From Ruminococcus sp. (GTDB taxonomy: Bacteria > Bacillota > Clostridia > Oscillospirales > Acutalibacteraceae): a stretch of 61,563 nucleotides of DNA. How positions within the stretch are numbered: the stretch's first letter is position 1; each line of letters begins with the position of its first letter. The notes under the pieces are model-generated. The model did no database searches, was not told the origin of the DNA, and saw only the letters and a program-made list of their open reading frames with translations. The position numbers were made by a program, and so were the translations under genes. This document shows positions 18,608-39,769 of this stretch, in pieces. The stretch lies in the NCBI GenBank assembly GCA_017464765.1, contig JAFTYK010000019.1, positions 1 to 61,563 on the forward strand. Direction: 5' to 3'.

Positions 18608-18667
18608 AGTATCCTCCATAATTATTATCTAGTTTATTTCATAAGCAAGAGAAAATCAAGTGTTATA

Positions 18668-18694
18668 ATTCTAATATAGAAAATGTATTAGAAT
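18668..18694. promoter_or_regulatory. Candidate operator: perfect inverted repeat
   Basis: ATTCTAATA (18668-18676) and TATTAGAAT (18686-18694), 9-base spacer, between divergent genes. No regulator gene is adjacent, so the binding protein is unknown. Confidence 0.4.
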
Positions 18695-18885
18695 AAAAAT
18701 AGACCCTGCTCTTTCGTACAAAAAAACTTAATCTAATTTGTGCAATATTGCTAAACGGTTGTGCGAAATAACTTCAAAAATACGGTTTATAATTCTTTGA
18801 AGTGCATTAAAATAGCTTTTAGTTACAAACTAGAAATTTACAGTTCACATTCTATTAAATATTTATTATTGCTTTTTACCAAAAC

Positions 18886-18914
18886 TTGATATATAATTAC
18901 TTTGGTTATATTAT
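18886..18914 (+). promoter_or_regulatory. Putative sigma-A promoter of the surface locus
   Basis: TTGATA (18886-18891), 17-base spacer, TATTAT (18909-18914), giving a leader of about 110 bases before the start at 19029. Confidence 0.5.
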
Positions 18915-19028
18915 GTTTTGGGGTAATTGCGTCCTGAAGTAGGATTATTGTTATTTTTATAACGATTTATTTGCTGATATTATACAGATTATATTATACA
19001 TTTATATACATATTTAATGGTGATTGTT

Positions 19029-19847
19029 ATGGACAAAAATCAACAGCAGCTCCTGTTGGAAATTGAAAAACTTAACAAAGCCCAGGCTAGAATCAAACGT
19101 AAGACAACTTTTATGCTCTGCGTTATAGCTCTTTTAGTGCTTATCACATCTACTCTGGCGTGGTTTACACTCAACAGCTTTGCAAGTGTAGAGAATATCC
19201 AGATGGATATTACTACAGGTGTAGACCTGAGAGTCGATATGGAGAACCATGGTCCGGATATAGAGCTTTATAAGAAGACCATCACTAACGAGATGATTAA
19301 TGGTTATTTAGCTTCACACGGTAACTACACTCTTGCTGATCAGATGCTCGACCCTGTTACAACAAGTAACGGTATCACTTTCCAGAGTGAGAAGGGTGCA
19401 GTTAGAGAAGCTGGAGAAGGTTCATTCCTTGAGTTTGATTGTTACTTTATCGCCTCTACTGATATGTGGGTTCATCTGTCAAGTGATGATGCTAATGATT
19501 TCGAAGGCACTTCTGTTACTACTACTGAAACAGGTCTTAAGGCTGAAGTTATTCAGGCAGTAAGAGTTGGTTTCGAAGAGGAGGGCGCAACTCCTGCGGC
19601 TATTTACGAACCTAACAAAGTCGGTTCTGCTGTAAATGGTCAGACAACATTCGATCTTTCAGTGCCTATGAACTATTCTAACTCAACTCGTCTTTTCCAT
19701 CTTAATGAACTTGAACCAAAGAAGGTTACAATTCGAGTATGGGCTGAGGGTAATGACCCTCAGTGTGACGATGACGTTCAGCGTTCTAATCTCACAGTAA
19801 GACTCCTGTTCTCTGGTACTGATGAGGACAATACACCATTTGGTTAA
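19029..19847 (+). CDS. SipW/TasA-type exported surface protein 1
   Basis: About 272 aa. A charged cytoplasmic N-terminus of 25 residues precedes one hydrophobic segment (about 27-43) ending in STLAWFTLNS. The aromatic AWF position resembles the cleavage-region motif of SipW-processed proteins such as TasA (TWAAFND). The mature part is beta-rich and begins TTGVDLRVDM. Near the C-terminus is VWAEGNDPQC, a motif shared with five neighbours. There is no wall anchor. ATG at 19017 has no ribosome site; ATG at 19029 follows GGTGAT (19019-19024). It is the first gene of the locus. Function as a fibre subunit is inferred. Confidence 0.78.
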   Translation: MDKNQQQLLLEIEKLNKAQARIKRKTTFMLCVIALLVLITSTLAWFTLNSFASVENIQMDITTGVDLRVDMENHGPDIELYKKTITNEMINGYLASHGNYTLADQMLDPVTTSNGITFQSEKGAVREAGEGSFLEFDCYFIASTDMWVHLSSDDANDFEGTSVTTTETGLKAEVIQAVRVGFEEEGATPAAIYEPNKVGSAVNGQTTFDLSVPMNYSNSTRLFHLNELEPKKVTIRVWAEGNDPQCDDDVQRSNLTVRLLFSGTDEDNTPFG

Positions 19848-19889
19848 TTCCTATTACATTATATATAGCAGTTTTGGGAGGTGGCTTTG

Positions 19890-20741
19890 ATGCCATTGTT
19901 TAAGAAAAAACTTAATAACGACGAGCCTTTTACTCCCGAACAGTTAAAGAAGCTCGAAGACAAAGGTGACATAGCGGTTGACAAAGCCCGCAATATGACC
20001 ATCTTCGATAGATTCTTAGCACGAAGAGATAGTAAGGACATCGGACGTACTGTTCGCTGGAAACGTAGAGCAGGAGTAACACTTGTTATCGCGATTTTCA
20101 TTCTTATTATTCTTTGGATTATCTCTTGGTTACTTACAACAATCGGTGACCTCGTAATTTCTGTTGAAAACGGCGCGGCTAAAGAGGGTATCATCATCAG
20201 CGAATCGTTAAACGATGATGGCTCTATGAAAGACCCTAAGCTTCAGCTTTCTGCTCAGAACGTTACTGAAGTTACTAACATTACATACGATTGGCTTCCA
20301 ACTGACCTTGATACTGAGGCTGATGGTGAGCATAACGGTGAGAACTACCTTGCTTATACTTTCTATCTTACTAATAACGGTAAGGAAACACTTGATTTAG
20401 AAAGTACACTCAAGTTCACTGGTATCGCTAAGAACGCTGACGAAGCACTCCGTGTTATGATTTACAGAAACGGCGAGCCTACAATTTACGCTCAGAAGAA
20501 CCGTGACGGTAGTCCACTCGAAGATATTGTTAACTTCGAGTTCGTTGAGGGTAATGATGATCTCAATCTTAACGACTACGTTCTTCTCAATGACCTCACT
20601 GAGGACATTGAGCCTAACGAAACTATTAAGTACACAATCGTTACCTGGATTGAGGGTAACGACCCTGAGTGCTTGAATGACATTATGGGTGGTTACGTTA
20701 AAATGCAGTGGCTCTTCAACGTAGATGGAGAGGAAATTTAA
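19890..20741 (+). CDS. Surface-locus membrane-anchored protein 2
   Basis: About 283 aa. A long, charged cytoplasmic N-terminus of about 58 residues is followed by one membrane helix (about 61-83) that lacks the AWF motif of its neighbours, having ISWLLTTIG instead. It may stay membrane-anchored instead of being cleaved. The external domain has a beta-sandwich-like pattern and ends with TWIEGNDPECLND and GGYVKMQWLF, closely matching the C-terminus of protein 1 and others. GGGAGG at 19876-19881 is 8 bases before ATG 19890. It could be the base or anchor of the structure; this is inference. Confidence 0.75.
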   Translation: MPLFKKKLNNDEPFTPEQLKKLEDKGDIAVDKARNMTIFDRFLARRDSKDIGRTVRWKRRAGVTLVIAIFILIILWIISWLLTTIGDLVISVENGAAKEGIIISESLNDDGSMKDPKLQLSAQNVTEVTNITYDWLPTDLDTEADGEHNGENYLAYTFYLTNNGKETLDLESTLKFTGIAKNADEALRVMIYRNGEPTIYAQKNRDGSPLEDIVNFEFVEGNDDLNLNDYVLLNDLTEDIEPNETIKYTIVTWIEGNDPECLNDIMGGYVKMQWLFNVDGEEI

Positions 20742-20916
20742 GCGCCGACGCTCGTAGCCCTCACAAGATCAAAGTCGAGTCTGTATTTTCGTAGTTGATG
20801 ATGTCAACGTAGAAAATCAATGCGAGACTGTGGATTTTTGAGCAATAGCGAAGAGTAACGAGGCGTGATATCTAAGAGCCGAGCTGAAAGCCTCACCTGT
20901 TTAAAGGTAGGGGAAT

Positions 20917-20942
20917 GTAGGGGCGATCATTGGTCGTCTGGA
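20917..20942 (+). repeat. GTAGGGG-type palindromic repeat, copy 1
   Basis: TGTAGGGGCGATCATTGG then TCGTC; near-palindromic core GGGCGATCA/TGGTCGTC. Identical over its core to 23096-23124. Confidence 0.75.
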
Positions 20943-20965
20943 TAAAAATATCAAGTATTTGTGTG

Positions 20966-20988
20966 TGACGGCGTCCTTGATGTCCCGA
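20966..20988 (+). repeat. GTAGGGG-type palindromic repeat, diverged copy 2
   Basis: GTGACGGCGTCCTTGATG then TCCCG, matching 23015-23042 (GGACGGCATCCTTGACG then TCCCG) with few changes. Confidence 0.65.
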
Positions 20989-21007
20989 AAGCAAAGCACA
21001 AAAATAT

Positions 21008-21054
21008 CTCTATCCGATGAGAGAGGTGTCACCGATAGGTGACGGAGGGAGAGA
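21008..21054 (+). repeat. Double-hairpin repeat, copy 1
   Basis: Hairpin TCTCT/AGAGA (21008-21025), hairpin GTCACC (21029-21034) with GGTGAC (21039-21044), then tail GGAGGGAGAG. It has the same architecture as the copies at 22144 and 23142. Confidence 0.65.
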
Positions 21055-21134
21055 ACATAAATTTCAACTCCCATGAATTCTGGTATTTACCATATGAGGC
21101 GTACTCGTGTGGTCAATATATAATTTATTAAACA

Positions 21135-21158
21135 ATCCCCTACGTGTTTTTGGGGGAT
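21135..21158 (+). promoter_or_regulatory. Leader hairpin ahead of the main subunit gene
   Basis: ATCCCC (21135-21140) pairs with GGGGAT (21153-21158). It lies between a TATAAT box (21120-21125) and the strong AAGGAGG site (21166-21172). It could protect the mRNA 5' end or attenuate read-through. Confidence 0.4.
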
Positions 21159-21180
21159 ACAAATTAAGGAGGAATTTCTC

Positions 21181-22053
21181 ATGAAAAACACAACATTTAG
21201 AAAGAAGGCTTTATTGTCTTCTGTTGCTATGCTCCTCGTAGCTCTCGTAGCTCTTGGTTCTGCAACATTCGCATGGTTCGCTGCTAACCCTAACGCAGAA
21301 GCTGCAGGTCTTTCTTTAAAGACTACTGCTTCAACTGGTCTTGTAGTTAAGACAGATTCATTTGACATTTGGTCACACAATGCTATTCTTAACGCTGCTC
21401 AGGATTCAGAGGGCAACCTCTTAAAGAATGCTGAAGATGAGTATTACACATCACCTAAGGCTTTCGATCTCCAGCCAGTTTCTCAGGATCAGACAACTCC
21501 AGCTAACTTCTGGACTGTTGCTGCTAAAGATTCCGGTGACGAAATTTATGATCCTAATGCTACTATGACTTCAGCTTCTGTTGGTACTTACAAAGCTACT
21601 GGTGCTGTTTACTCAGAAAAGATCTACTTCAGACTTTCTGATGGTTCTGCCGCTACAACAGATAACGTTTACCTCACAGGTGTAACAATCACAAAGAATG
21701 CTAACGCTACTATGGAAAACGCTATCCGTGTTGCTGTTGTTAATAACGAAAATCAGCTTCTCGGTACATACTGCATTTCTTCTGCAGGTGCTAACGGCAC
21801 ATTAACAACAGCTGCTAAAACTGCTGGTGATTTCAATCCAGCTCTTGCTACAGCTGTAGGTAAAGATGGTGTTAAGGTTGTTGACGGTGCTGACCTCACA
21901 GCTGACGCTGCTGACAAAGATAACTACGTAACAGTTTACGTATACCTCGATGGCCAGGATGGAGACTGCTACTCAGACAAGGTTGGTACAGTAAATGCTA
22001 CTCAGATCATTTCTGGTATTGATCTTGACTTCAAACTTAAGGCTGCTCCTTAA
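21181..22053 (+). CDS. Probable major SipW/TasA-type fibre subunit
   Basis: 290 aa. A short basic N-terminus (FRKKA), a hydrophobic segment at residues 11-29 and SATFAWFAAN (AWF at 31-33) form a classic SipW-type signal, with Ala-rich sequence after it. The mature part begins SLKTTASTGLVVKTD and ends with VYVYLDGQDGDC and a final beta strand. The optimal AAGGAGG site 8 bases from the ATG, repetitive Ala/Thr-rich composition and a private leader suggest this is the most abundant product of the locus. This makes it the best candidate for a polymerising subunit, but no direct evidence of polymerisation can be read. Confidence 0.78.
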   Translation: MKNTTFRKKALLSSVAMLLVALVALGSATFAWFAANPNAEAAGLSLKTTASTGLVVKTDSFDIWSHNAILNAAQDSEGNLLKNAEDEYYTSPKAFDLQPVSQDQTTPANFWTVAAKDSGDEIYDPNATMTSASVGTYKATGAVYSEKIYFRLSDGSAATTDNVYLTGVTITKNANATMENAIRVAVVNNENQLLGTYCISSAGANGTLTTAAKTAGDFNPALATAVGKDGVKVVDGADLTADAADKDNYVTVYVYLDGQDGDCYSDKVGTVNATQIISGIDLDFKLKAAP

Positions 22054-22101
22054 GTTATTTGATTAACGAAGTTAAATGATTATTTAAACTAAATGTTGTT
22101 C

Positions 22102-22127
22102 GTGCCTCCCCTTAGTTGGGGAGGCAC
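22102..22127. repeat. Perfect 10-bp hairpin after the main subunit gene
   Basis: GTGCCTCCCC (22102-22111) and GGGGAGGCAC (22118-22127), loop TTAGTT. No T-run follows, so it is more like a repeat element or an mRNA 3' stabiliser than an ordinary terminator. Confidence 0.75.
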
Positions 22128-22143
22128 AGATGACAACAAATTT

Positions 22144-22191
22144 GCCTCCCTTGTTAAAGGGAGGGGGACCGCTTTAGCGGTGGAGGGATTG
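22144..22191 (+). repeat. Double-hairpin repeat, copy 2
   Basis: CCTCCC (22145-22150) with GGGAGG (22159-22164), then ACCGC (22168-22172) with GCGGT (22177-22181), then tail GGAGGGATTG. Confidence 0.75.
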
Positions 22192-22225
22192 AAAAATCTC
22201 AATTAACCCATATCAAGGAGAATTT

Positions 22226-23014
22226 ATGAAAGTATTTAAGAGTATTTTAAACACATTGATTAACATTTTAATAGTTTTGGTTTTAGTTGTTTCTATACTT
22301 GTTGCAACTTTAGCACTTACTTCTAAATCCTCCGGTATTTCTAACATTTTTGGCTACACCTTTCAGGTTGTAATGTCTGACTCCATGGATGGTGGTAGTG
22401 AAGACTACGAGGGTGGCGACTTCAAAAAAGGTGACGTCATCATCGGCAAGGTTACTAATAACGCAAAAAGTGACACCCCTGAAACATACGTGATTGGTGA
22501 TATAATTACATACAAAGGTTACTTACAGAATAATGAGCATTTAGGTGAACAGCTTATTTGCCATAGAATCGTTGGTGTACAAGATAGAGATGGTGAACCT
22601 GTTTACCAAACACAGGGCGACAACCGTTCTATTTGTACAGTTCCTGATCAGGAAGTTGTTGCTGATTATATTAACGCTAATGCAATTGTTGCAAAATTCC
22701 ATACCAATGATTTTGATGGTATTAAGATTGCAGGAGTAGGTAAAGCCTATGAGTTTATTAACTCACAGCTCGGCTTCTTCCTTTGCATCCTTTTACCAAT
22801 GATTTTCTTCTTCCTTTATGTTCTTATCAAAGTTGTTATTAACTTTGTTGAGTACAAAAAGGCTAAAGAAGACGAAGAAAAGGAGAAAAACACTCCTTCT
22901 TCTGAACCTGCTCCACAAATGTCTGCTGAAGAATACGAGCAGTTTAAACAGTTTATGGCGTTAAAAAACGCCCAAGCATCAGATTCTGATGCACCTTCCG
23001 AAGAGGAAGTTTAA
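22226..23014 (+). CDS. SipW/ER-type signal peptidase I (first of two)
   Basis: 262 aa. The N-terminal membrane helix spans about 10-31 and a second helix about 182-207 leads into an acidic cytoplasmic tail. The catalytic Ser is S53 in VVMSDSMDGG. The expected Lys is replaced by His113 in ICHRIVGV, as in SipW, archaeal and ER signal peptidases; TQGDNR supplies the conserved C-terminal acid box. In Bacillus, SipW processes TasA and TapA. The probable substrates are the AWF/SWF proteins around it. AAGGAG precedes the ATG. A large insertion between the Ser and His boxes makes it longer than the second copy. Confidence 0.9.
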   Translation: MKVFKSILNTLINILIVLVLVVSILVATLALTSKSSGISNIFGYTFQVVMSDSMDGGSEDYEGGDFKKGDVIIGKVTNNAKSDTPETYVIGDIITYKGYLQNNEHLGEQLICHRIVGVQDRDGEPVYQTQGDNRSICTVPDQEVVADYINANAIVAKFHTNDFDGIKIAGVGKAYEFINSQLGFFLCILLPMIFFFLYVLIKVVINFVEYKKAKEDEEKEKNTPSSEPAPQMSAEEYEQFKQFMALKNAQASDSDAPSEEEV

Positions 23015-23042
23015 TGTAGGGGACGGCATCCTTGACGTCCCG
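23015..23042 (+). repeat. GTAGGGG-type palindromic repeat, copy 3
   Basis: Starts right after the signal peptidase stop. The core GGGACG (arms) and CGTCCC surround GCATCCTTGA. Confidence 0.75.
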
Positions 23043-23056
23043 TAATATCATAATAT

Positions 23057-23082
23057 AAGGGCGACCATCGGTTGTCCAAGTG
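23057..23082 (+). repeat. GTAGGGG-type palindromic repeat, copy 4
   Basis: AAGGGCGACCATCGGTTG then TCCAAGTG. Its tail AAGTG matches the GAGTG of copy 5. Confidence 0.7.
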
Positions 23083-23095
23083 TTAAATACAAGAT

Positions 23096-23124
23096 TGTAG
23101 GGGCGATCATTGGTCGTCCGAGTG
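23096..23124 (+). repeat. GTAGGGG-type palindromic repeat, copy 5
   Basis: TGTAGGGGCGATCATTGG then TCGTCCGAGTG; identical to copy 1 over 23 bases. Confidence 0.8.
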
Positions 23125-23141
23125 TGAAGCACACAAAATAA

Positions 23142-23206
23142 GGCTCCTTTGTGTAAAGGGAGCTGTCAGCGTAGCTGACTGAGGGATTGTACTAAAAAAC
23201 TCCCTC
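23142..23206 (+). repeat. Double-hairpin repeat, copy 3
   Basis: GCTCC (23143-23147) with GGAGC (23159-23163), GTCAGC (23165-23170) with GCTGAC (23174-23179), tail TGAGGGATTGT. The tail's GAGGGA can also pair with TCCCTC at 23201-23206. I know this sequence type as a common intergenic repeat of gut Clostridia. Confidence 0.8.
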
Positions 23207-23286
23207 AAACATTACTTTGGAAATAATTAGTGGCTTTATGCTACGTTATTTTATATATCCTTAAATCGATAAAGGAGTAGAACATT

Positions 23287-24819
23287 ATGGATACCATCTT
23301 TAAATTCTTATTTGACTTTTTAGGTCAGTTCTTCGGTTCTATCTGGGGCGCTATCGTTGGCGTTGCCAAGGGAATCGTTGGCATGTTCAATTTCTCTGAA
23401 TATGTCAAGATTATTGAGAACTACACTACAACTTTAGGAGGCCTTGCGTGGGTAATCGCAATTATTGCTATTATATTACTCGCTGCAGTACTTGGTCTTA
23501 TTATCTTCTTTATCGTTATGTGGGTTAAAAAGTTTGTTAAGTTCAAGAAGAAGGTTAAGGACACAAACGACCTTGTTAATGAAGTTAACGCTTTAAATAA
23601 AGAAGTTATGCGTATGAACCTCGAGAAAGACAAGATTCTTTCTATGAAGGTTTCACAGATCGGTCTGAACCCTAATGAAATTTCTGAGCTTACAGGCGAC
23701 GAGATGGAAGCACTCAACAAGGGTGAAGAAGAAGTCAAGGGCGGTCGTTTCAACAAGCTTATTGCTATTGATAATGAATGGGCTGATTATCAGCCACCAC
23801 AGTACGATTGGGATATTACTCTTCCTGAGTTCTGTGACAGATTCAGAAACTTCGCTTGTTCAAGACTCAAGCTCTTCTATGATATCAAGATTTTACGTTG
23901 CTTTGTCGCAGCTTTCGCTTCAAACCGTTTGCTTATCTTACAGGGTATTTCCGGTACTGGTAAAACATCGCTTCCGTACGCATTTGGTAAGTTCGTTCAG
24001 AACCCTGCTGTTATCGCATCAGTTCAGCCTTCATGGCGTGACCGTACTGAGCTTTTCGGTTACTTCAACGAATTTACTAAGAAGTACAACGAAACCGAAC
24101 TTCTCCGTGCGCTTTATGAAGCTTCATACAATGAGAATGTTTACGTTGTAATCCTCGACGAAATGAACATCGCTCGTGTCGAGTACTACTTTGCTGAGAT
24201 GCTTTCAATTCTTGAAATGCCTGCTCACGATGAGTGGATTATCGAGTTAGTTTCTGCTCCATGGCCTGATGACCCTGCTCACTTCGATAATGGTAAAATC
24301 TGTGTTCCTGATAATATTTGGTACGTTGGTACTGCTAACAACGACGACTCTACATTCGCTATCACAGATAAGGTTTACGACCGTGCATTGCCAATTGATA
24401 TTAACAGTAAGGGTAAACCTTTCGATGCTCCTGATACAGAGCCTATCTTTATAAACTACAAGCATTTGACAAAACTTCTTTCAGATGCTGTTGAAGCTTA
24501 TCCAATCTCTGAAGAGAACCTCAAGAAAATTGAAATTCTTGATGACTATGTAATTGAACACTTCCGTGTAGCTTTCGGTAACCGTGTTATGAAGCAGATG
24601 AAAGACTTCGTTCCTGCTTATGTTGGATGCGGTGGTACTGAAATTGACGGTATCGACTATTGCCTTGCTAAGAAGGTATTTAGAAAGTTTGAAGCACTCA
24701 ACATTTCTTACATCCGCGACGAGATCGATGGTCTTGTTCAGCAGCTTGATCAACTCTTTGGTAAAGAGAATATGAACGAGTGTAAAGAATATGTAAGAAT
24801 GCTTCAGAAGATGATGTGA
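23287..24819 (+). CDS. Membrane-anchored McrB-like AAA+ NTPase
   Basis: 510 aa. The N-terminal hydrophobic stretch (about 4-34) and a clear membrane helix (about 53-80) precede a short coiled segment, so the ATPase is tethered on the cytoplasmic side. The AAA+ core has Walker A GISGTGKTS (220-228), Walker B VVILDEMN (287-294) with the McrB-like NIARVEYYFAEMLSILE, and sensor 1 TANND (349-353). McrB proteins are GTPases of restriction systems; membrane anchoring is unusual for them. The coiled-coil gene follows after 39 bases and is its probable partner. Position inside the surface locus suggests a role in secretion, assembly or quality control of fibres, which is inference. Confidence 0.85.
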   Translation: MDTIFKFLFDFLGQFFGSIWGAIVGVAKGIVGMFNFSEYVKIIENYTTTLGGLAWVIAIIAIILLAAVLGLIIFFIVMWVKKFVKFKKKVKDTNDLVNEVNALNKEVMRMNLEKDKILSMKVSQIGLNPNEISELTGDEMEALNKGEEEVKGGRFNKLIAIDNEWADYQPPQYDWDITLPEFCDRFRNFACSRLKLFYDIKILRCFVAAFASNRLLILQGISGTGKTSLPYAFGKFVQNPAVIASVQPSWRDRTELFGYFNEFTKKYNETELLRALYEASYNENVYVVILDEMNIARVEYYFAEMLSILEMPAHDEWIIELVSAPWPDDPAHFDNGKICVPDNIWYVGTANNDDSTFAITDKVYDRALPIDINSKGKPFDAPDTEPIFINYKHLTKLLSDAVEAYPISEENLKKIEILDDYVIEHFRVAFGNRVMKQMKDFVPAYVGCGGTEIDGIDYCLAKKVFRKFEALNISYIRDEIDGLVQQLDQLFGKENMNECKEYVRMLQKMM

Positions 24820-24858
24820 TTTTAGATTTTAACTTTACTTAAAGGATGGTGAGTCCCC

Positions 24859-27237
24859 ATGTTAGATTATAGTAGATACTATCGCGCGTATGCTGAAATG
24901 CAGCAGACACTCGAAGGGGATTTTACAAGAGAATATTTAACTGGGGCATTAAAAGACAGCGATACTGGTAAGGATATTCTTGCAGGTAACGCTTACAACC
25001 GAGTTATCGATATGGAGTGGGTAGAGAAGATTGAAGAAACTCTCCCTTATATGGATAAAGCCATCCGCGAAGAGCGTAGATTCATCGAAACTTATGAAGA
25101 AGTTGACCGTGTTGACAAAGTAAAGCAGGTTACTAAAGAAGCTGTCCGTCACTTAACACAGCACACTAGCCTTATTCAGGCTGTTGATCCTGATGGTTCT
25201 GTTTCTCCGTCTAAGCTTCTTAATACCCATCGTGAAGATAGCTACGCTACATACGAAAATAGATTTTTATACACGCTTATTTTTAAAACTATTTCTTTCG
25301 TTGAAGCACGTTTCCGTGCTTTGAAAGAAGCTCCGAATGACTCATATACAAGCGTTGAGATGAAGCGTTATGCTAACCTCAATAATCAGATGTTTGCTTT
25401 TAATCTCACTTACGCTTCTGAATCTCACGATCGTGATAAGGTCGATAAGGAAGAGGATATCTCGAATCTTACTGACTACGAACGTATCACTCGTATCCGT
25501 ATGATGCTTGATGATTTTGTTAACACAAACCTCATTCAGGCACTAAAGGGTTGTATTCAGGTTCGTTCACCAATTAACAAAACTAACTGTATCAAAAAGA
25601 ACCCTAACTTCTCAAAGTGTAATGAGTTATGGTCTTTCATAGAAGCTTATCGTAAGACAGGTTACGTTGTAGAGTCTAATGAGTTTTCCGGCGAAATGGA
25701 TTCTGACACTCAGAGCGAACTTTACGATGTAATGGCTTTCCAGCACTTTGTTATGACTATCAGCACCAACAAACCGCTGAAAGATAAGCTCCACGCAGAG
25801 TATATCGCTGAAAATGAGCGTAGAGCTGCTGAGGCTAATAAACCTGAAGAAGAACAGGCTAAATGGCTTGAGGAGCAGATTTACGAAGCTAGACGTGAAG
25901 AAATGGCTCTTAGACTCAAGGAGGTCCGTGAGCGCGATATGATCATCGCTCAGCTCACTACTGAACTTGACCAAGAGAAAGAAAAAGTCAGACAGCGTGA
26001 TCTTAAGATCAAAGAGTTGCAGACACTCCTTGATGTTCGAGAAAAAGAACTCGAAGAAACTAAGGAAGAACTCAGAGCTGCTTTACAGAGAGTTGCTGAA
26101 CTCGAGGCAGAACTCGAGGTCTGCAAAGCTAGAATCGCTGAACTTGAAGGCATTGTTGAGGAGCAGAAGAAGACTATCGAAGCTCAGGCTGCAACAATCG
26201 TTGCACTCGAAGCTAAGATTGTTGAACTCAACGCTCTTATTGATACATTAAATGCTAAGATTGCTGAACTTGAAGCTAAGGTTGCAGAACTCGAGGCCGA
26301 AGTCGCAAGATGTAAAGCTAAAATCAAGGAACTCGAAGCTCACATTGACTTCCTTAATGATAAAATTTCTGTTCTTGAAACTACTATTCGTGACCTTAAT
26401 GCTGAAATTGAGGAACATAAAGCTAGAATCTCAGAACTTGAAGATTTAACTGCTAAGCAAGCTAAAACTATTGAAGATCAGGCTTCCCAGATTGTTATTC
26501 TCAACACAAGCGTTAACGATCTTAGAAATGCAAATTCTGAGTTGACTGACGAAAACGCAGGTCTTAAGTCCACCGTTGCACAGCATGAGAATACAATCGC
26601 GACACAGGCTGCGGACATAGAGGAAAAAGCTTCTCAGATTAACACCGCAAACGGCCAGATTGCTAATCTTTCAACACAGCTTTCTACTTTAGAGGGTGAC
26701 TACAAAACCCTCAAGAGTGACTTTGTGAAAGAGAAAGCAAAGGTTGTTGAGCGCGATAGCTTAATAGAGAAGAGTAACGAAAAGACAAATAAACTTCAGG
26801 ACGAACTCACAAATTCACGTTCTGAGTATAATGAGCTTAATAAAACAGTCAGCACTCACATCGCTAACTTGAAAGCGAAGGATAAAGAACTTTCACAGAA
26901 AGATAAAGCGATGAAAAATGCTGAAAAGAATAACGATAAAGCAATTGCAAAGCTTGAGAAAGATTTCGAGTCTAAACTTTCAGCGCTAAAAGCTGAATAC
27001 GAAGCGAAGCTTAAAGCTAAAGACAGCGAAATCGCTACAGCTAAAGGCTTTACTGACCAGCAAAAATACGAAGCTAAGCTTAAGTCAGCTACTAAAGAAA
27101 TCGAAGATAAATACAACAAGAATCTTAAGAAAGCTAAGAAGAAAGCTAAAGCCTTTGCTAAGAAAGCAGCTCTCTTGCTTGACTATAAACCTGAAAAGAT
27201 TCTTGATCTTGAAAACGTTGAGGATTACCTCGACTAA
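24859..27237 (+). CDS. DUF2357-like N-terminus plus long coiled-coil protein
   Basis: 792 aa with no signal peptide or membrane helix. The N-terminal 300 residues are globular, with LLNTHREDSYATYENRFLYTL (YENRF at 132-136), resembling the DUF2357 region found in partners of McrB-like ATPases. Residues about 310-770 are an almost unbroken coiled coil with Glu/Lys/Ala/Leu heptads. The tail is very basic (KKAKKKAKAFAKK) and ends in an acidic LENVEDYLD. No PD-(D/E)xK nuclease motif is visible, so it is not a normal McrC. A scaffold or tether working with the AAA+ protein is the simplest reading. Confidence 0.75.
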   Translation: MLDYSRYYRAYAEMQQTLEGDFTREYLTGALKDSDTGKDILAGNAYNRVIDMEWVEKIEETLPYMDKAIREERRFIETYEEVDRVDKVKQVTKEAVRHLTQHTSLIQAVDPDGSVSPSKLLNTHREDSYATYENRFLYTLIFKTISFVEARFRALKEAPNDSYTSVEMKRYANLNNQMFAFNLTYASESHDRDKVDKEEDISNLTDYERITRIRMMLDDFVNTNLIQALKGCIQVRSPINKTNCIKKNPNFSKCNELWSFIEAYRKTGYVVESNEFSGEMDSDTQSELYDVMAFQHFVMTISTNKPLKDKLHAEYIAENERRAAEANKPEEEQAKWLEEQIYEARREEMALRLKEVRERDMIIAQLTTELDQEKEKVRQRDLKIKELQTLLDVREKELEETKEELRAALQRVAELEAELEVCKARIAELEGIVEEQKKTIEAQAATIVALEAKIVELNALIDTLNAKIAELEAKVAELEAEVARCKAKIKELEAHIDFLNDKISVLETTIRDLNAEIEEHKARISELEDLTAKQAKTIEDQASQIVILNTSVNDLRNANSELTDENAGLKSTVAQHENTIATQAADIEEKASQINTANGQIANLSTQLSTLEGDYKTLKSDFVKEKAKVVERDSLIEKSNEKTNKLQDELTNSRSEYNELNKTVSTHIANLKAKDKELSQKDKAMKNAEKNNDKAIAKLEKDFESKLSALKAEYEAKLKAKDSEIATAKGFTDQQKYEAKLKSATKEIEDKYNKNLKKAKKKAKAFAKKAALLLDYKPEKILDLENVEDYLD

Positions 27238-27267
27238 CAACTAAACTATAACGAAAGGAGCAATAAT

Positions 27268-28308: not shown

Positions 28309-28338
28309 AACTTTTTGCATTCCGTTTTTAGGAGATTT

Positions 28339-31300: not shown

Positions 31301-31587
31301 TGACTTGGTCATCAAATACCGCTGAAGGCGGTGGATCTGGGTATAAACAGTATTATTACGATGTTAACGTTTCTAGTTATGATCGTATTATATTCTCCAA
31401 TGATTATGATTATGGCAACCAGCGTCGTCAGACTGGTGATATTATCGTTGGTACTGATGATCAAGTCAGCGGTATGATTTATCAATGGGATTCAAGTAAC
31501 CAGAGATGGCGCTCTTCACATAAAACAGGTGTTACTGCTAACGAAACATTACATGCAACACTTTATAATTCTAAAGACTGGCCTTAA
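28339..31587 (+). CDS. Giant surface protein A with starch-binding-like modules
   Basis: About 1,082 aa. SipW-type signal: hydrophobic 18-35 then STFAWFVFAD. A TasA-like beta domain includes the motif IIWLEGTDPDC near residue 537. A module at about residues 359-440 (TVYFNNTLGW, AYIWQANDKN, AWPGKPMT, DSIIFNDG, KTQDI) strongly resembles CBM25/26 starch-binding domains. A second at about 950-1040 (EIYVFKEGGG, AWPGTTMTW, DRIIFSNDYD, RQTGDI) repeats the pattern. No catalytic domain or wall anchor is visible. AGGAG at 28330-28334 favours ATG 28339 over an earlier in-frame ATG at 28315. It is probably an adhesin at the fibre tip or surface. Confidence 0.8.
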   Translation: MMKQSNFKKLNIFKTSPLIGVIAIVEVIILICVSTFAWFVFADNNTVNTDVLSVEPDSGLEIDFNDANENDYVNIWNYLNEFQFEPVTSLDGRNIFVPTTGTLNAIDTSNMKFREATVNDMNSKYINIDFTLTNNGTTAMPVYLSSKSYFNLYDPDTKESIASKAIRIAFYQNDGESGRITSSLLSKEYDGDTPEEPDDPDSPGDTQNSFYIYFNKSGSTWTDVWIETDYTAQAGSNKRIQMKQLDTNSDIYYLDLQASLSNFNPTNFYTWVKFHDSANSNSTTTSTVQLPNAKIEADSMYSFRLDDNGKAYTGSYNGGNGMMLNDPVPYNGDKPNVGGDDTGDSGTGDEDTGEVQGQTTVYFNNTLGWKQPYAYIWQANDKNTKDDDVPLSAWPGKPMTHISGSIYYYTFNSKYDSIIFNDGNSEGGAVKTQDISPVKDGYIYMIGTPTGDNEFGYAQEDYIGTVEAGTYPVISPGVSTGFQRPYAPVTQIDDNNGKSRVVIPAFASSIDDYNYGSEHSLFTIEPGQTLPLSMIIWLEGTDPDCTEDVYSGKFIDMNLVFATKDSGDKMYTYKFLDKTKENWIDDKITTDTGVSFKPVIQLYDVNSGKGYQMSVHDDEEGNPTIWQCSAPEALVNSDHIMFRRVNPMNEDEVWNYWDTSGFSGKDGAVVDSTVYFSAFSDGAPTKAVKDTNATEEANAPERSCGGLWGDHETKILTVYDGTENQWIKNSTKEGTTSVLTMNYTYNGQNIEYKASGSGNDMYYFVVPKVVYSKNGNSRPLITFKRYFNFDSKYALNSDKNELTYHMKWDCTACDGQFGQITGNNSGDFYWGSDILYIQAKKAVTDKMSGSHLQVHFYTTSDGSEVSGTSHYTTLYRNDNFAASGDGYGYACVVPSNKNYYKYRVERCNPNSTSEKWNITSLQDINTSNNDSDYSYLNTVSNNICTIDYLFLKVYLECSTSYCGDSWDPEIYVFKEGGGEEKAWPGTTMTWSSNTAEGGGSGYKQYYYDVNVSSYDRIIFSNDYDYGNQRRQTGDIIVGTDDQVSGMIYQWDSSNQRWRSSHKTGVTANETLHATLYNSKDWP

Positions 31588-31624
31588 TATTAATTCTTAA
31601 AATACACATAAAGGAGGTGTCACG

Positions 31625-33886: not shown

Positions 33887-33917
33887 TTTATATATTTTTT
33901 GATAAGGAGGTGTTGAA

Positions 33918-36900
33918 ATGAGCCAGAAAAAAAGATATACAAGAGCAGAAATTAAAGCGCAGATTAAAGAAAAAAAGCGTATGAAAGCTTTGGCAGTACA
34001 GCGTAACGTTACTGTATTCGCGTTACTAGTTATGCTTATTTTAGGTTTAGTTTCAACAACCTTCTCTGCTTTTGTTTCTACTAACACAGGGGAGAGCGGT
34101 TCTCTCGTTGCTGATATTCAGACTCTCGCTGTGTATCAGGGTAACAAAGACCAGGTTGCAAACCTTGGTGCTAATGCTGATATTTCTTCAACTTCAGCAG
34201 ATACATACTACTTAGCTGGTACAATGAATGGTTGGAATACTACATCTACTCCAATGACTCAAGGTACGGACACTAATGGACAGACTTTTTATTACTCCGG
34301 ATATTACAGCAATCAAGAACAGTTTAAGGTTGTTAAAAACGGAAGTACATGGCTTGGTAGTAATAAGAATTCATCTTCTATTTATCCAAATTCGCTTTCA
34401 ATGTATGAATATGGTAGTACTGGTAACTGTTGGCCTGGTTCTGGTGGCTATTATGTTGTATATAATCCTACAAAGGACAAAATTTCTTGTGTAACAGTAT
34501 TACCATTAAAAGTAGAGGTTACTCCTTTTGAAGTTGGCGATGTCGTTTACTTCGATATTAGAAATAACACCGGATGGCTCACTGCTGATTCTAGTAGCCA
34601 GATGTATATTCAGTTTAATGACAGTACTACAGGTAGCACAAGTAACCGCGCACAGTTGACACGTATTGGTACTTACCTATATATGTACAAGTTTACATCA
34701 CAGTGTGATAGTGCGATACGTTTCTGGCGAGGAAACAGCAGTAATATGTGGAACTATACTAATCCACTTTCTGCTGGTAGTAGCAATGGTATTTATTTAT
34801 CTGGTACAAATGATTGGAGTGGTTCTGGTACAGCGGGTACTTTCTCACTTACTAGTTTAAGCACTCCGTCGCTTACTCTTTCACCTAATAGCATTACTTT
34901 AGGTCAGTCTACCACTTTGTCTTCCTCAGCTTCAACACCATCAATCAGTTATAAGATTGATAGTACTTCATATTCTACTAATACAATAAGTGGGGATATT
35001 AAGTATACCTTCAAGAATGGTTCTACTGCGCTTAATACTGCAAGTACAACTAGTTCATATACTTGGACTCCTTCTTTAGCTGGTACATTTTCTACTTATG
35101 TCACTATTACAAGTACCTCTACAGGTTTATCGGCAACTTCAGCTGCACAGACACTTACTGTAAAAGCTACATATACTTATGTTGTGACGGCTAATACAGG
35201 TGGTACGGTACGACTTACAAGCTCATCGTCTACAGCGTCAAGCTTAAGTGGTAGTGTGACAGCTGGTGAGTATATTTCTATTACTGCAGTTCCTAATACA
35301 GGTTTCACTTTTGCTGGATGGACAGATGCGACTAAAGGTACTATTGGTGCGTCTTCTGAGTCAACAACATTTACTCCTAGTGCTACTGGTGCATCTGTAA
35401 AAGCTAATTTCCGTCCAAACACCCCATCTGCTCTCACATTAACAGGGACACCTTCTGTTTCTGGTAACGGTACTGAATCTAACCCTTACATTGTTTTTAA
35501 TGATAGTGGATTCACTATTACTGCTAACGCTACCGTTGTAAGTGGTGCTAGTAAGTATTATACAACCACCGATCCTGATGATGATGACGGATATTCAACT
35601 CAGAATGTGTTCACACCATTTAGTTCAGATATTTCTCTAAAAGGTGTTGATCAATCATACACAGTATACGCTAAAGCTTATGCTGGTGGATATTATTCAA
35701 ACAATAGTATTAACGCTACAGCACACTATATGGTATTCAGTCACTTAAATGGTGATAATACTGGTTTCACTTTGAGTGATGATAATATTGATGACACTGA
35801 GTCTGTCACATTGTCCGGTGCTTATGTGAATAGTGTTGCTGATGCTGAAAAAGCGTACATCACTCGGACTTATCAGTTCAGCACAAATAACTCTACTTTC
35901 TCTGATTTATCGGATACAACATGGAAACCTGATACTACTGGTACATACTACTTTAGAGTAAAGACCACTAATACAAAAACAGGGGAGACTGTTTATTCAG
36001 AGTCCCAGTCGATAACTGTTACCCAGAGTACCAGATATTATACTATAACTGTTACAAAGGCAACTGGCTCTGGTAATGGTACTGCTACTCTCAAATCTGA
36101 AGGCACTACTATTACAGATAACCATATACTTTCTAACAAACCTCTTACACTTGCTCTTGCACGTGCAAATGCTACACCATCAAATTACTATTTCACTTAT
36201 ATTAAAGTAACTGATGGCACAACTACATGGGAAAAGACTAACATTAACGAAAATTTAGCTGATACAGTAGTTATTGAGCACGTTAAAGGTGATGTTACTA
36301 TTGAGTATTGCACTGCAGTTAAACCTTTAGTTCAGCCTAAGTTACCTGCTAATGCTTCATCTATCAGTTTTAAATATGTGAGTGATGGTGTCACAAAGAC
36401 AAGTACTACTGCAGGTAATTACTACGTTGATTACAATAGCGATATTTCGTATTCTGTAACACCGAATACAGGATTTTACGTAAGTGATATGAAGGGTGTT
36501 GAAATCGGCACTATTACTTCATCAACAGTAGAGGGTACAAAGAGCGGTATTATACAGAATGTAGGCGAGGTAACAGCTACACTTACAAAAAATAGCACTA
36601 TTAAAGTTATTATCGATACCACTTCTAACGTTACTACAGGTGGTTCGATGACTATTGATGGTACTGCTGTTTCTTTCGGTGTCGAAAAACCACTTAACTA
36701 TAACGCACAAGCTGAGGTTGTTATTACACCACCTGATGGTTGTTATGCAGTAGTCAGCGGTGATGTTACTAATGCTACCATTGACACTGAAGGTAAGGCT
36801 ACATTTAATGTAACTTTAACTAATAAGAACAAGGAATGTACTGTAAAGTTTGTTTCTAACCCTAAGATATATATGATTCAGCCACAGTATGGTTCTGTAT

Positions 36901-38453
36901 ATGTAACAGACGATCTTGGTAACTACTACTTTAACGGCGATTCAGTTGGTTACGGCACAATGCTTACTGTTCACGCTAAGCCTGACCATGCTAACGCTAA
37001 GTTAAGTAGCGTTCTTGTTAACAATGCATCGATCGGAACTGTTGATGGTTCGACATTCAATATTAAAGATGATTCAACAGCTACGGCTAGTATTTCAGTA
37101 GACAATGAATTTGCTTTTGCTGAGGATGAACACACAGCGTACGGTACTCGTCGTATCTTCTTCACAGATACATGTGCATGGGGAAATAGTAACGCTAATA
37201 ACGTTTTAGTACACTATTCCAATACATCAGGTGATACTGATTTTAATAAAAATAATATTACTATGACTCGCAAGTACTATAACGAGTATAGTCAGTATGT
37301 TTACTATGCTGACATTCCGTTTAGTACAAAATATGTTACTTTTGTTAATGCTGCTAATACTGCACAGTATTCAACGCAGGGTACAATTGCTGACACAAAC
37401 AATGCGTTTTACATGGGCAATACTGGCAACTATCCACGAGCTATTTCTACTTGGGTATTTAACTATTCTGACTATGTAGCAACAGACAGAGTTGATACTA
37501 TCCAGCAGGCGATAACTTCTAAGGGCGATGCTGCTACATTCACTTACACTTGTGACTTTGGTGACAGTGCGCTTTCAGCAGAAGTAGTTTCTGGTAATGC
37601 TGCTACCTTTGATTTTGATAAGGGTACTTTATCAATCACTCCAACATCTAATATTTATAACCATACCTTAGTTAAGGTTACATCGTCAGCGTCAACAACT
37701 GTTAAGTACTACCTCATCAGGGTTGATAGTTTTGAGATAGACGCCTTTTCTGGTTTACAGAAGATCTATAGTACAAGTGTATTTAACGATATTCAGCTTG
37801 ATCTTATTTTAAAGGGTGGAGTACTCAATTACGCAGCAAGCTTCTTTGTTTCTGATACTAATGCCTCAAATTCCTTTGGTGAGTTGACACCAAACAAAAG
37901 CGGTACATTTGAGTACGTAGATTCAATTGAAGGCTATATTAATAGCTTCCTTATTGAATACGCTATCAACTCAGTAAGCGGAGTTAAGTATTATAAAGTA
38001 AAAGCTTCTGATAGCGCTAATCATACAGCGACTGCTACTATTAAAACTTTATTTGGTACAAATACTCATAAGGGTGAACGTGCCATTTACTTCTTTAATG
38101 ATACTAATGTCAACCTTTCTAAGTATAAGCTCAGGGCTTGCTTTATGGATGCGGAAAGTAATAAGAGTACTATTAAGACTTTTGTTACTATGCAGCAGGT
38201 AGGCGACACTAACTATTACCGTGCAGTTATTCCAAAGAATGCTGAGAGTTATGTTAATTTCTATCTCTGTAATCCAAAGACTTTCTCGAATAATTTTGCA
38301 GACTTTGATGGTACAGATGATTCAACTGAGTTCTATTCTTTCGGTTTATTTGATGTTGCAGTACCAAATAAAGATGCTGCAAACATTGTTTACAAAGCTA
38401 ATTCAATCGATGCTAATGGTATCATTGGTGAATTCGTTGATTTTAATTATTAA
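33918..38453 (+). CDS. Giant surface protein C, multidomain adhesin with glucan-binding-like modules
   Basis: 1,511 aa, Ser/Thr/Asn-rich. A cytoplasmic basic N-terminus of 30 residues precedes hydrophobic 31-46 and TTFSAFVSTN. Near residue 97 YYLAGTMNGWN looks like a CBM48/CBM20-type start. VYFDIRNNTGW (about 211) and RIFFTDTCAWGN (about 1077) begin CBM26-like modules, and RAIYFFNDT (about 1388) begins another. Ig-like segments and an InlB B-repeat-like module (GGTVRL, ITAVPNTGFTFAGW, about 422-495) lie between. There is no LPxTG, SLH or C-terminal helix. AAGGAGGTG precedes the ATG. It is a likely adhesin, and the largest protein in the window. Confidence 0.8.
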   Translation: MSQKKRYTRAEIKAQIKEKKRMKALAVQRNVTVFALLVMLILGLVSTTFSAFVSTNTGESGSLVADIQTLAVYQGNKDQVANLGANADISSTSADTYYLAGTMNGWNTTSTPMTQGTDTNGQTFYYSGYYSNQEQFKVVKNGSTWLGSNKNSSSIYPNSLSMYEYGSTGNCWPGSGGYYVVYNPTKDKISCVTVLPLKVEVTPFEVGDVVYFDIRNNTGWLTADSSSQMYIQFNDSTTGSTSNRAQLTRIGTYLYMYKFTSQCDSAIRFWRGNSSNMWNYTNPLSAGSSNGIYLSGTNDWSGSGTAGTFSLTSLSTPSLTLSPNSITLGQSTTLSSSASTPSISYKIDSTSYSTNTISGDIKYTFKNGSTALNTASTTSSYTWTPSLAGTFSTYVTITSTSTGLSATSAAQTLTVKATYTYVVTANTGGTVRLTSSSSTASSLSGSVTAGEYISITAVPNTGFTFAGWTDATKGTIGASSESTTFTPSATGASVKANFRPNTPSALTLTGTPSVSGNGTESNPYIVFNDSGFTITANATVVSGASKYYTTTDPDDDDGYSTQNVFTPFSSDISLKGVDQSYTVYAKAYAGGYYSNNSINATAHYMVFSHLNGDNTGFTLSDDNIDDTESVTLSGAYVNSVADAEKAYITRTYQFSTNNSTFSDLSDTTWKPDTTGTYYFRVKTTNTKTGETVYSESQSITVTQSTRYYTITVTKATGSGNGTATLKSEGTTITDNHILSNKPLTLALARANATPSNYYFTYIKVTDGTTTWEKTNINENLADTVVIEHVKGDVTIEYCTAVKPLVQPKLPANASSISFKYVSDGVTKTSTTAGNYYVDYNSDISYSVTPNTGFYVSDMKGVEIGTITSSTVEGTKSGIIQNVGEVTATLTKNSTIKVIIDTTSNVTTGGSMTIDGTAVSFGVEKPLNYNAQAEVVITPPDGCYAVVSGDVTNATIDTEGKATFNVTLTNKNKECTVKFVSNPKIYMIQPQYGSVYVTDDLGNYYFNGDSVGYGTMLTVHAKPDHANAKLSSVLVNNASIGTVDGSTFNIKDDSTATASISVDNEFAFAEDEHTAYGTRRIFFTDTCAWGNSNANNVLVHYSNTSGDTDFNKNNITMTRKYYNEYSQYVYYADIPFSTKYVTFVNAANTAQYSTQGTIADTNNAFYMGNTGNYPRAISTWVFNYSDYVATDRVDTIQQAITSKGDAATFTYTCDFGDSALSAEVVSGNAATFDFDKGTLSITPTSNIYNHTLVKVTSSASTTVKYYLIRVDSFEIDAFSGLQKIYSTSVFNDIQLDLILKGGVLNYAASFFVSDTNASNSFGELTPNKSGTFEYVDSIEGYINSFLIEYAINSVSGVKYYKVKASDSANHTATATIKTLFGTNTHKGERAIYFFNDTNVNLSKYKLRACFMDAESNKSTIKTFVTMQQVGDTNYYRAVIPKNAESYVNFYLCNPKTFSNNFADFDGTDDSTEFYSFGLFDVAVPNKDAANIVYKANSIDANGIIGEFVDFNY

Positions 38454-38474
38454 TTATTATAGGAGGTGAAAACC

Positions 38475-39080
38475 ATGAAAAGAATATTACCTGCAATCTG
38501 TGTTCTTTTAGCAGTATTAATTGTAATTTTAGGCATGACAACCATATCTTTCTCATGGTTTGAACCTGACATAGAAGAGGGTATTGGTCTTGAGTTTAAG
38601 GAGGATACAAAGCTTCGTTCACAGGAATGTACCATAGCTACTTACTCTGGAACTAAAGGCAATAAGATTACTGATTACAAAACCACCGAAGTTGCTGATG
38701 CCAATGTTACTCTTGAAGCTACTTCTGAAACAGTTACCGCAGAAGATGGTAGTGAAAGTACTGTGTACACACCTGTTTACGCTTACTACAAAACCGTAAT
38801 CACAAATCCTAGTGATGATTATGATACTGTTGTATCGTTGTTCTTGCCTTCTTTTGTTCCGAGTAACGGTAACTCCAGTTTATGTGTAGCTTATCCTACT
38901 AACTCATGTAGAACTTTCTCAGAAGAACAGACTGACATCCATATCATTCGTAACGCTTATGTTCCAAATAATGTAGCAACTGATTCAAACCCGGGTCAGC
39001 TTGTTGTCGAATGGTTTGTGAAGTGTAGTGTTGGTTCTGTTACCTTTAATCCTTCACAGGTTTATTTGATGTACAGCTAA
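38475..39080 (+). CDS. SipW/TasA-type exported surface protein 8 (small)
   Basis: About 201 aa. The signal-like N-terminus is hydrophobic at 5-24 and ends in TISFSWFEPD (SWF at 27-29). The mature part is a single beta-rich domain ending VVEWFVKCSVGSVTFNPSQVYLMYS, which may be a truncated version of the locus C-terminal motif. A GTG at 38466 lies inside the AGGAGG site (38461-38466), so ATG 38475, 8 bases after it, is preferred. It sits 9 bases before the second signal peptidase. Such gene pairing resembles the tapA-sipW pairing of Bacillus. Confidence 0.72.
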   Translation: MKRILPAICVLLAVLIVILGMTTISFSWFEPDIEEGIGLEFKEDTKLRSQECTIATYSGTKGNKITDYKTTEVADANVTLEATSETVTAEDGSESTVYTPVYAYYKTVITNPSDDYDTVVSLFLPSFVPSNGNSSLCVAYPTNSCRTFSEEQTDIHIIRNAYVPNNVATDSNPGQLVVEWFVKCSVGSVTFNPSQVYLMYS

Positions 39081-39089
39081 GGTGACACT

Positions 39090-39731
39090 GTGAAAATTAC
39101 GAAAAAGATAATGGGTATTTTAGGTACTGTTTTGCTTATAGTATTAATTGCAGTACTTATCTTGATGTTTAATGCCCGCATTTCAGGTGAAGCACCTTCA
39201 GTTTTCGGCTACCAGATTTTCCGTGTATCATCAGGAAGTATGGAGCCTGAGCTTATGATTGGTGATGTAATTCTTGTTAAAGAGGCTGAACCTATTGATA
39301 TTGAGAAAGGTGACATTGTCACTTATAAAGGTAAAGAAGGAGATTTCTCTGGTAAATTTATCACTCATAAGATGATTGAAGATCCTCAGCTTGTTGATGG
39401 AGAATATGTTTTTAAATCACAAGGTATTGTTGAGGGCGCTCTTCCTGACCCACTGTGGTATGAAGATCAGCTTTTAGGTGAGTTTGTTTGTAAAGTTCCA
39501 TTTATTGATAGTGTTTACACTTTCTTCTTGAAACCATATGGATTAATAGTATTTATACTGGTTATAATGGTTTTATTCGGGTATGAGCTTATTTCATTGA
39601 TTGTTTCATACAAAAATCTTGATGAACTTGAGTATGAAGAAAAACAAAAGGAAAAATCTAATAGGAAAAAAGAGATTGTTTTATCTAATGAAGTTGAGCT
39701 TAAATCCGATGATGAAGATTCAGAAAAATAA
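39090..39731 (+). CDS. SipW/ER-type signal peptidase I (second copy)
   Basis: 213 aa. The N-terminal helix is about 7-28. The catalytic Ser is S50 in VSSGSMEPEL, and His93 in FITHKMIE replaces the Lys of ordinary bacterial signal peptidases. A C-terminal helix (about 150-172) is followed by a charged cytoplasmic tail. The start is GTG at 39090, preceded by AAGGTGA. It is the last gene of the locus, before a strong terminator. It differs strongly from the first copy around the active-site spacing, so the two may serve different substrates. Confidence 0.9.
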   Translation: MKITKKIMGILGTVLLIVLIAVLILMFNARISGEAPSVFGYQIFRVSSGSMEPELMIGDVILVKEAEPIDIEKGDIVTYKGKEGDFSGKFITHKMIEDPQLVDGEYVFKSQGIVEGALPDPLWYEDQLLGEFVCKVPFIDSVYTFFLKPYGLIVFILVIMVLFGYELISLIVSYKNLDELEYEEKQKEKSNRKKEIVLSNEVELKSDDEDSEK

Positions 39732-39740
39732 TAGTTTTAA

Positions 39741-39769
39741 AGACCTGAGTTTTACTCGGGTCTTTTTTT
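39741..39769 (+). terminator. Terminator closing the surface locus
   Basis: AGACCTGAGT (39741-39750) and ACTCGGGTCT (39754-39763), loop TTT, one G-T pair, then seven T's. Confidence 0.92.

Follow-up and report, generated by a model that had tools for sequence, protein, structure and literature searches.

Why would an AAA+ protein related to McrB, whose GTPase type is known from restriction motors, be encoded among signal peptidases and surface proteins? This question is raised by a locus of Ruminococcus sp. (assembly GCA_017464765.1, contig JAFTYK010000019.1), of which the window, meaning the whole analysed stretch of 61,563 nucleotides, carries twelve open reading frames (ORFs) on the plus strand at positions 19017 - 39731, in the order S1, S2, S3, SipA, AAA+, CC, S4, S5, S6, S7, S8, and SipB. 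Their products are eight exported or membrane-anchored proteins (S1 to S8), two SipW/endoplasmic reticulum (ER)-type signal peptidases (SipA and SipB), a McrB-like AAA+ nucleoside triphosphatase (NTPase), and a coiled-coil protein (CC). The best reading of this gene set is a TasA/BsaA-like fibre system, for the assembly of which a restriction-related NTPase would have been recruited. Such a surface-fibre locus would be of the CoCoPALM type, a class named in a few sentences by Bell et al. 2024 (eLife, PMC11090510), with its study deferred, and defined by NxD McrB-like GTPases that carry a fused FtsB-like membrane/coiled-coil domain and are associated with signal peptidases (PMC11090510). The probability of this whole statement, including the mechanism of the NTPase, is put at roughly 0.55. 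Taken apart, the surface-fibre role of the locus is likely, a role in ordered fibre assembly is the leading guess for the NTPase, held tentatively, and a gripping of starch by the fibre is plausible.

The evidence that carries this answer is the constancy with which the genes occur together. An earlier model-made description of the window from its letters and ORF list (the sequence-only reading) had proposed that the AAA+ gene and its coiled-coil partner belong with SipW genes, and had set their co-occurrence as a check beforehand. Among the named loci, which are the best 80 of 574 relatives and are biased towards close ones, 79 possessed a called AAA+ ORF; a SipW gene was present in 75 of these 79, and a DUF2357/coiled-coil protein was encoded by the next plus-strand ORF after AAA+ in 75 of the 79 as well. 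The four named loci lacking a SipW gene offered only 39, 586, 1361, and 2370 bp of upstream DNA, and 4 - 10 kb downstream. Two of the four loci without the coiled-coil gene in the next position were cut by an edge, and two (L111 and L136) were not. As the ORF caller retained the longer of overlapping ORFs, antisense ORFs hid genes, such as the AAA+ gene of L064, and these counts may be low. At the family level, AAA+ was matched in 29 of 200 genomes, namely 24 close ones (at least 53% identity, the window's own included) and five remote ones, and a SipW-like gene was found in 22 of the 23 close neighbourhoods other than the window; the exception (L035) begins inside the AAA+ gene. Given these counts, the refuting case named by the sequence-only reading, a pair found mostly away from SipW genes, was not encountered. 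Furthermore, SipW was present in 13 of 20 hand-picked regions from the order and class, odd and remote ones included, and the conserved neighbourhood spans many genera, including metagenome-assembled genomes (MAGs) named Bacillales and Erysipelotrichaceae. Judged from these sequence comparisons, paired SipW-type peptidases, proteins with SipW-type signals, an anchored NxD McrB-like NTPase, and a DUF2357-like/coiled-coil partner are a conserved unit.

The presence of two SipW/ER-type peptidases, as predicted from the sequence, was borne out. SipB (39090 - 39731) exceeded the cut-offs of both TIGR02228 (78.9 bits) and PF10502, and matched NF046067 at 2.2e-25, under its strict cut-off. SipA (22226 - 23014) was recognised by matches under cut-off (NF046067, 7.6e-22; TIGR02228, 43.3 bits) and by its SDSM, CHRI, and GDN motifs; the serine and histidine motifs are present in both proteins. 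Among 177 SipW-labelled ORFs, the SxSM motif occurred in 96, a histidine motif after SxSM in 88, and a lysine-type motif in none. The candidate substrates carry the corresponding signal. The hydrophobic segment ends in an aromatic motif in seven of the eight exported or anchored proteins (AWF in four, and YSW, SAF, and SWF in one each), S2 being the exception, so that the earlier count of seven stands. Indeed, a test for SipW-type motifs was positive in 7/12 ORFs of the locus and in 0/33 other window ORFs of at least 100 amino acids. Around the AAA+ gene of the relatives, 231 of 398 ORFs on the same strand passed this test, against a background of 3/80 ORFs of like length in six other stretches (3/93 without a length limit). 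This enrichment exceeds chance. None of the window proteins reached the cut-off of the curated signal model TIGR04088. In profile comparisons run without shuffle control, S1 and S3 matched the TasA/CalY/BsaA family in their signal regions with a probability of 83 - 94%, a likeness to which shared hydrophobicity may contribute.

The first three genes encode what may be the fibre subunits. S1 (19017 - 19847, with a possible start at 19029; LAWF), S2 (19881 - 20741), and S3 (21181 - 22053; FAWF) are members of one family according to profile comparison (hhalign; S1-S3 99.2%, S1-S2 97.1%, and S3-S2 97.7%), and share a C-terminal motif of the approximate form W-x-E-G-x-D-P-x-C (WAEGNDPQC in S1 and WIEGNDPEC in S2), which is looser in S3. 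The gene for S3 has the lowest effective number of codons (34.6), hence the strongest codon bias, among the 33 window genes measured. This is expected of an abundant subunit, which makes S3 the candidate major fibre protein. Directly 3' of S3, a GC-rich inverted repeat was found (22110 - 22180), possibly a partial terminator or a processing site lifting S3 above its neighbours. S2, which is membrane-anchored and without an aromatic cleavage motif, is a candidate for the fibre base or a TapA-like anchor; the TapA model TIGR04087 matched S1 at an E-value of 0.0047 only, far under its cut-off. For comparison with TasA, members of the PF12389 and TIGR04090 families were drawn from other genomes, the mature TasA/CalY set comprising seven sequences. 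The S2 ectodomain matched the TasA family weakly and colinearly over about 150 columns, with a score of 24.7 - 25.6, compared with maxima of 16.0 and 15.5 in 20 and 30 column shuffles, respectively, and 16.2 for an unrelated alignment (A6, of the DUF2357-like domain). Full-length S2 gave 50.6% against the pooled set. This profile resemblance of S2 to the TasA family is suggestive only. Searches of the PDB with the S1, S2, and S3 profiles returned nothing usable.

The remaining exported proteins are encoded 3' of CC, and comprise S4 (27268 - 28308; LAWF, with a C-terminal WIEGCD), S5 (28315 - 31587, with an ATG start at 28339; FAWF), S6 (31625 - 33886; YSW), S7 (33918 - 38453; 1511 amino acids, SAF), and the small S8 (38466 - 39080; SWF), homologues of which are carried by the relatives. 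Whereas the sequence-only reading had seen giant glucan-binding-like adhesins here, Pfam support for glucan binding was restricted to S5, which contains two stretches of the CBM26 starch-binding module (PF16738, 1.2e-16); S7 bears an InlB-type B-repeat instead (PF18998, 9.7e-9), and the large S6 matched no Pfam family. The glucan-adhering fibre put forward at that time is still inferential, yet it is better grounded and now concerns starch, as 15 of 88 loci carry CBM26 on a SipW-type ORF, the count being confined to loci that extend 7 kb or more beyond the AAA+ gene on its downstream side, with duplicate contigs dropped and 29/29 seeds used. In a midpoint-rooted AAA+ tree of 115 rows, from which 11 duplicate or remote loci had been removed beforehand, all 17 CBM26-bearing rows fell within one clade of 44 rows (support 95/90). 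CBM26 was further found in 12 of the 23 AAA+-bearing family genomes searched (G122 left out). The host assembly of the window (1.5 Mb, 67% complete) displayed 30 CBM26 matches and therefore looks like that of a starch specialist. In one subclade, CC is followed by a cargo of just one protein, about 2,000 - 5,900 residues long and with an ordinary-looking signal peptide, the largest lengths being sums over two adjacent stretches. Giants behind AAA+/CC in L044, L045, L047, L114, L118, L121, and L138 have a C-terminal WG[VLI]x tail in common, perhaps a sorting or recognition signal; the tail was present in 7 of 15 ORFs of more than 1,800 amino acids with a complete 3' end, and in 4 of about 1,700 other ORFs by pattern.

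It could be argued that the exported proteins form no fibre at all, and act as individual adhesins, close to the membrane or shed, for which the use of SipW peptidases is coincidental. The size of S5 to S7, the replacement of the cargo by one giant protein in a subclade, and the weakness of the TasA similarity are in line with this. However, S1, S2, and S3 are small and homologous, and S3 has the codon bias typical of abundant subunits. In addition, the conserved hydrophobic N-terminus of the mature proteins (WF) fits a donor strand, and polymerisation via an N-terminal donor strand is described for TasA (PMC9674648). An arrangement without fibres is thus considered unlikely.

As for the AAA+ protein (23287 - 24819), it did not reach the cut-off of any Pfam or NCBIfam model; with an alignment profile searched against the PDB, E. 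coli McrB was its only solved relative at an E-value of 0.01 (three distinct sequences, best 6.3e-8). The Walker A (GISGTGKT), Walker B (LDEMN), and NNDD motifs are invariant in 18 aligned AAA+ sequences, and the NTPase looks active on the strength of its motifs. The NxD[DE] pattern was retrieved in 122 of 127 AAA+ ORFs, the other five being without a match. At the N-terminus, a membrane segment precedes a charged stretch that is probably helical. Of 124 AAA+ ORFs that have a P-loop and are closed at the 5' end, 121 were classed as anchored by a hydropathy test, and the other three are remote matches. Concerning the FtsB-like segment, weak Pfam FtsL matches were obtained in 8 of 18 sequences (best 0.037), and neither FtsB nor DivIC figured among the 25 of 56 families shown.

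Its partner CC (24859 - 27237) had been described as a coiled-coil protein; the coiled coil is long and stands, and the description is to be completed with a region resembling the N-terminal domain of McrC (DUF2357). PF09823, which represents this domain, matched 6 of 19 aligned CC proteins at E-values up to 10 (best 4.2e-11) and exceeded its cut-off in four of the eight scanned (L033, L059, L069, and L206). The window's own copy had no direct PF09823 match, its DUF2357 region being placed via alignment to homologues, and a PDB search with the alignment of this domain (A6) did not return McrC. The coiled coil sits where McrC has its nuclease. Pfam listed no nuclease domain in the twelve genes, and no PD-(D/E)xK family appeared among the listings shown for CC. 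Pairwise distances of AAA+ correlated with those of CC (0.82), S2 (0.71), SipW (0.68), and, less, S3 (only 0.38), shared ancestry included; functional coupling and shared descent are inseparable in these values. L198 and L199 have an AAA+ gene on either side of DUF2357/CC, in contrast to the usual single copy.

Besides fibre assembly, the AAA+/DUF2357 pair might serve quality control, extracting uncut or misfolded pre-subunits or destroying stalled export complexes, without a role in assembly. Membrane-anchored AAA+ rings such as FtsH perform membrane quality control, and the anchoring of 121 of 124 AAA+ ORFs, as well as the position of the pair beside substrates with long hydrophobic signals, would suit such a task. 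Nevertheless, Pfam lists no protease domain in AAA+ (FtsH_ext occurs only at E-values of at least 0.12, in 2 of 18 sequences), the nearest solved relatives are McrB structures, and a DUF2357 activator combined with a coiled-coil rod is, to our knowledge, not a feature of FtsH-type machines, which renders quality control an improbable function. The pair might also be a surface-linked defence module, for instance one that senses phage attachment to the fibres or shuts the surface off upon infection. Its McrBC, CoCoNuT, and PDC-M26A relatives are indeed defence proteins or candidates, and the PADLOC model PDC-M26A matched all three AAA+ proteins tested, that of the window at 5.4e-38. Against this, the twelve genes contain no nuclease domain recognised by Pfam, and among the other window genes scanned (up to 47901) none is evidently defensive; an AddAB-like pair (115 - 5551) does have PD-(D/E)xK domains but resembles housekeeping repair. 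Moreover, one scan yielded no relatives on viral contigs, plasmid matches were remote (0/263 records cover 80% of the query), and the company of SipW is constant, making a defence role very unlikely. Finally, a chance neighbourhood of an unrelated McrB-like gene and a SipW operon, conceivable insofar as SipW genes are common in the family, is rejected, since the neighbourhood is conserved over many genera with SipW in 75/79 named and 22/23 family loci.

In a fibre system with a recruited NTPase, SipA and SipB would cut their substrates after -xA|WF, and the hydrophobic N-terminus set free would become the donor strand, in the manner of TasA. S3 would be the main subunit, S2 the membrane base, and S1, S4, and S8 minor subunits, while S5 to S7 would form substrate-binding tips or shafts, S5 gripping starch by means of CBM26. 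The McrB-like protein may constitute a hexameric ring on the membrane's inner face; the DUF2357 domain would sit in the ring axis and activate it, and the coiled coil would provide a rod or scaffold in the cytoplasm. Hydrolysis of nucleoside triphosphate might then gather or gate peptidases, base, and pre-subunits at one site, allowing fibre growth to start in order.

Several observations weigh against such a fibre system, the PDC-M26A matches and the bias of the named loci among them. The resemblance to TasA and SipW proposed from the sequence held for a SipW-type surface system and for the signals of S1 and S3, but not for the protein bodies. Neither the locus proteins nor the remainder of the host assembly (G000) contained a match to PF12389 (TasA/camelysin), and the BsaA model TIGR04090 had no match in this genome. 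As the bodies of S1 and S3 had no profile match to TasA, and the S2 ectodomain did not match the BsaA set when this was used by itself (score 18.4), a TasA-like fibre fold is unproven. Transcription as one unit is uncertain, as intergenic gaps of 439, 172, and 272 bp occur within the locus. Promoter-like sites were not in excess in 18500 - 23300, the sole stretch scanned for them (15 versus 12.4 in shuffles, standard deviation 4.8). Regarding co-occurrence, TIGR02228 peptidases were detected in 165 of 200 family genomes at an E-value of 0.001 (96 over cut-off), versus 24 of 200 with a close AAA+, and no SipW-like gene was seen in the five remote family loci (L036 - L040). Anchored AAA+/DUF2357 pairs without SipW in the available DNA were encountered in L196 - L200 and L206. 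Of these, L196 - L199 represent one branch, and L200 and L206 stand apart on long branches, the joining of which may be false; L211, also without SipW, encodes S2 and S3. Edge-cut loci aside, the variants lacking SipW thus lie mostly on two long branches. In L196, L197, and L199, the SipW-less pair is adjoined by a protein of 1292 or 1383 residues. A transglutaminase core, along with N- and C-terminal hydrophobic segments, was noticed in the two such proteins scanned (L196, 2744 - 6622; L199, 2262 - 6413). Lastly, no AAA+ protein is reported for the SipW systems of B. subtilis and C. perfringens in the available portions of their accounts (PMC9674648 and PMC7395162), and the term 'AAA' does not occur in the text of the latter; an assembly motor is therefore not obviously required.

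Compared with known systems, the locus resembles CoCoPALM in three of the four features examined, namely the NxD motif, the association with signal peptidases, and a McrC homologue with a coiled coil. The statement that no described fibre system combines these parts, made from the sequence, consequently falls, Bell et al. 2024 (PMC11090510) having named the class. Their account, as far as its main text goes, is without SipW substrates, the S1/S2/S3 family, CBM26 adhesins, and the gene order; 'SipW' does not occur in that main text, and the supplementary tables may list more. Judged by title, only that article and its preprint, among those retrieved, concern CoCoPALM. A description of the cargo (S1/S2/S3 and the CBM26 adhesins) was not found in the literature searched, a search that lay outside supplements and most subscription journals. 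The locus represents a novel form of SipW locus, the pairing itself being already named. CoCoNuT systems differ in having a nuclease in or near the McrC homologue, whereas Pfam lists none in 19017 - 39731. Similarly, McrBC type IV restriction shares the McrB-like AAA+ core and a DUF2357-like partner, but the locus has a membrane anchor in place of the DNA-binding domain and a coiled coil in place of the PD-(D/E)xK nuclease. With tapA-sipW-tasA of B. subtilis, as far as described in the portions consulted, it shares a SipW-type peptidase beside its substrates, an aromatic residue just past the cleavage site, and a major subunit with an anchor; unlike that operon, it encodes a second peptidase, a starch-binding adhesin among eight candidate substrates or anchored proteins, and a McrB-like NTPase. 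The sipW-bsaABCRSD operon of C. perfringens is likewise a clostridial SipW operon for a polymerising exported protein and accessory exported proteins, with SipW needed for export and polymerisation of BsaA in the portions available (PMC7395162). The amylosome of Ruminococcus bromii also involves surface starch-binding proteins in a starch-specialist Ruminococcus, while CBM26 of the present locus sits on a SipW-type adhesin.

The layout of the locus agrees with the one given by the sequence-only reading, in which genes of one direction lie between a long control region and a strong terminator. The twelve ORFs are preceded by about 400 bp without a called gene (18620 - 19016, plus strand; no ORF of at least 60 amino acids), and are followed by a terminator-like hairpin and T run on the same strand (around 39738 - 39768), recognised by eye. 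At gathering score, Rfam returned no family in 18620 - 19016, and a tRNA (17577 - 17662) as the sole known RNA of the window. Genes for RadC, an acyltransferase, UvrB, and then gyrase lie 3' of the hairpin, and the ten upstream genes scanned are ordinary-looking, the AddAB-like recombination proteins among them. An identical 22-base repeat is present in the gaps before S3 (20917 - 20938) and AAA+ (23097 - 23118), with none expected in shuffles, and may be a dispersed intergenic repeat.

Regarding distribution, AAA+ was retrieved at an E-value of 1e-60, the window counted, in 30/295 genomes of the order, 15/291 of the class, and 1/398 of the phylum, the latter being the window itself. Among the matches listed, the window's AAA+ was closest to those of uncultured MAGs of Ruminococcus and Eubacteriales; judged by their titles, two of the three nearest came from goat and cattle colon. 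Speculatively, and with less confidence than for the NTPase role in this locus, a nuclease-less, membrane-anchored GTPase of the McrBC lineage may be a dedicated cytoplasmic engine for SipW-cut donor-strand fibres across gut Firmicutes. Its cargo would be exchangeable, comprising fibres that bind starch in Ruminococcus-like bacteria, proteins reaching about 5,900 residues in other bacteria, and giants with a transglutaminase core in SipW-less branches. With no nuclease found, the steady pairing of a McrB-type GTPase with signal peptidases and surface proteins points to a shift from defence towards construction of the cell surface. As PDC-M26A of PADLOC matches an NTPase whose role is probably a different one, loci of this kind may be mislabelled by automated annotation of defence genes. 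The CoCoPALM class hereby gains a concrete cargo and a testable role, and the locus suggests how Ruminococcus-like gut bacteria that feed on starch might keep hold of it.

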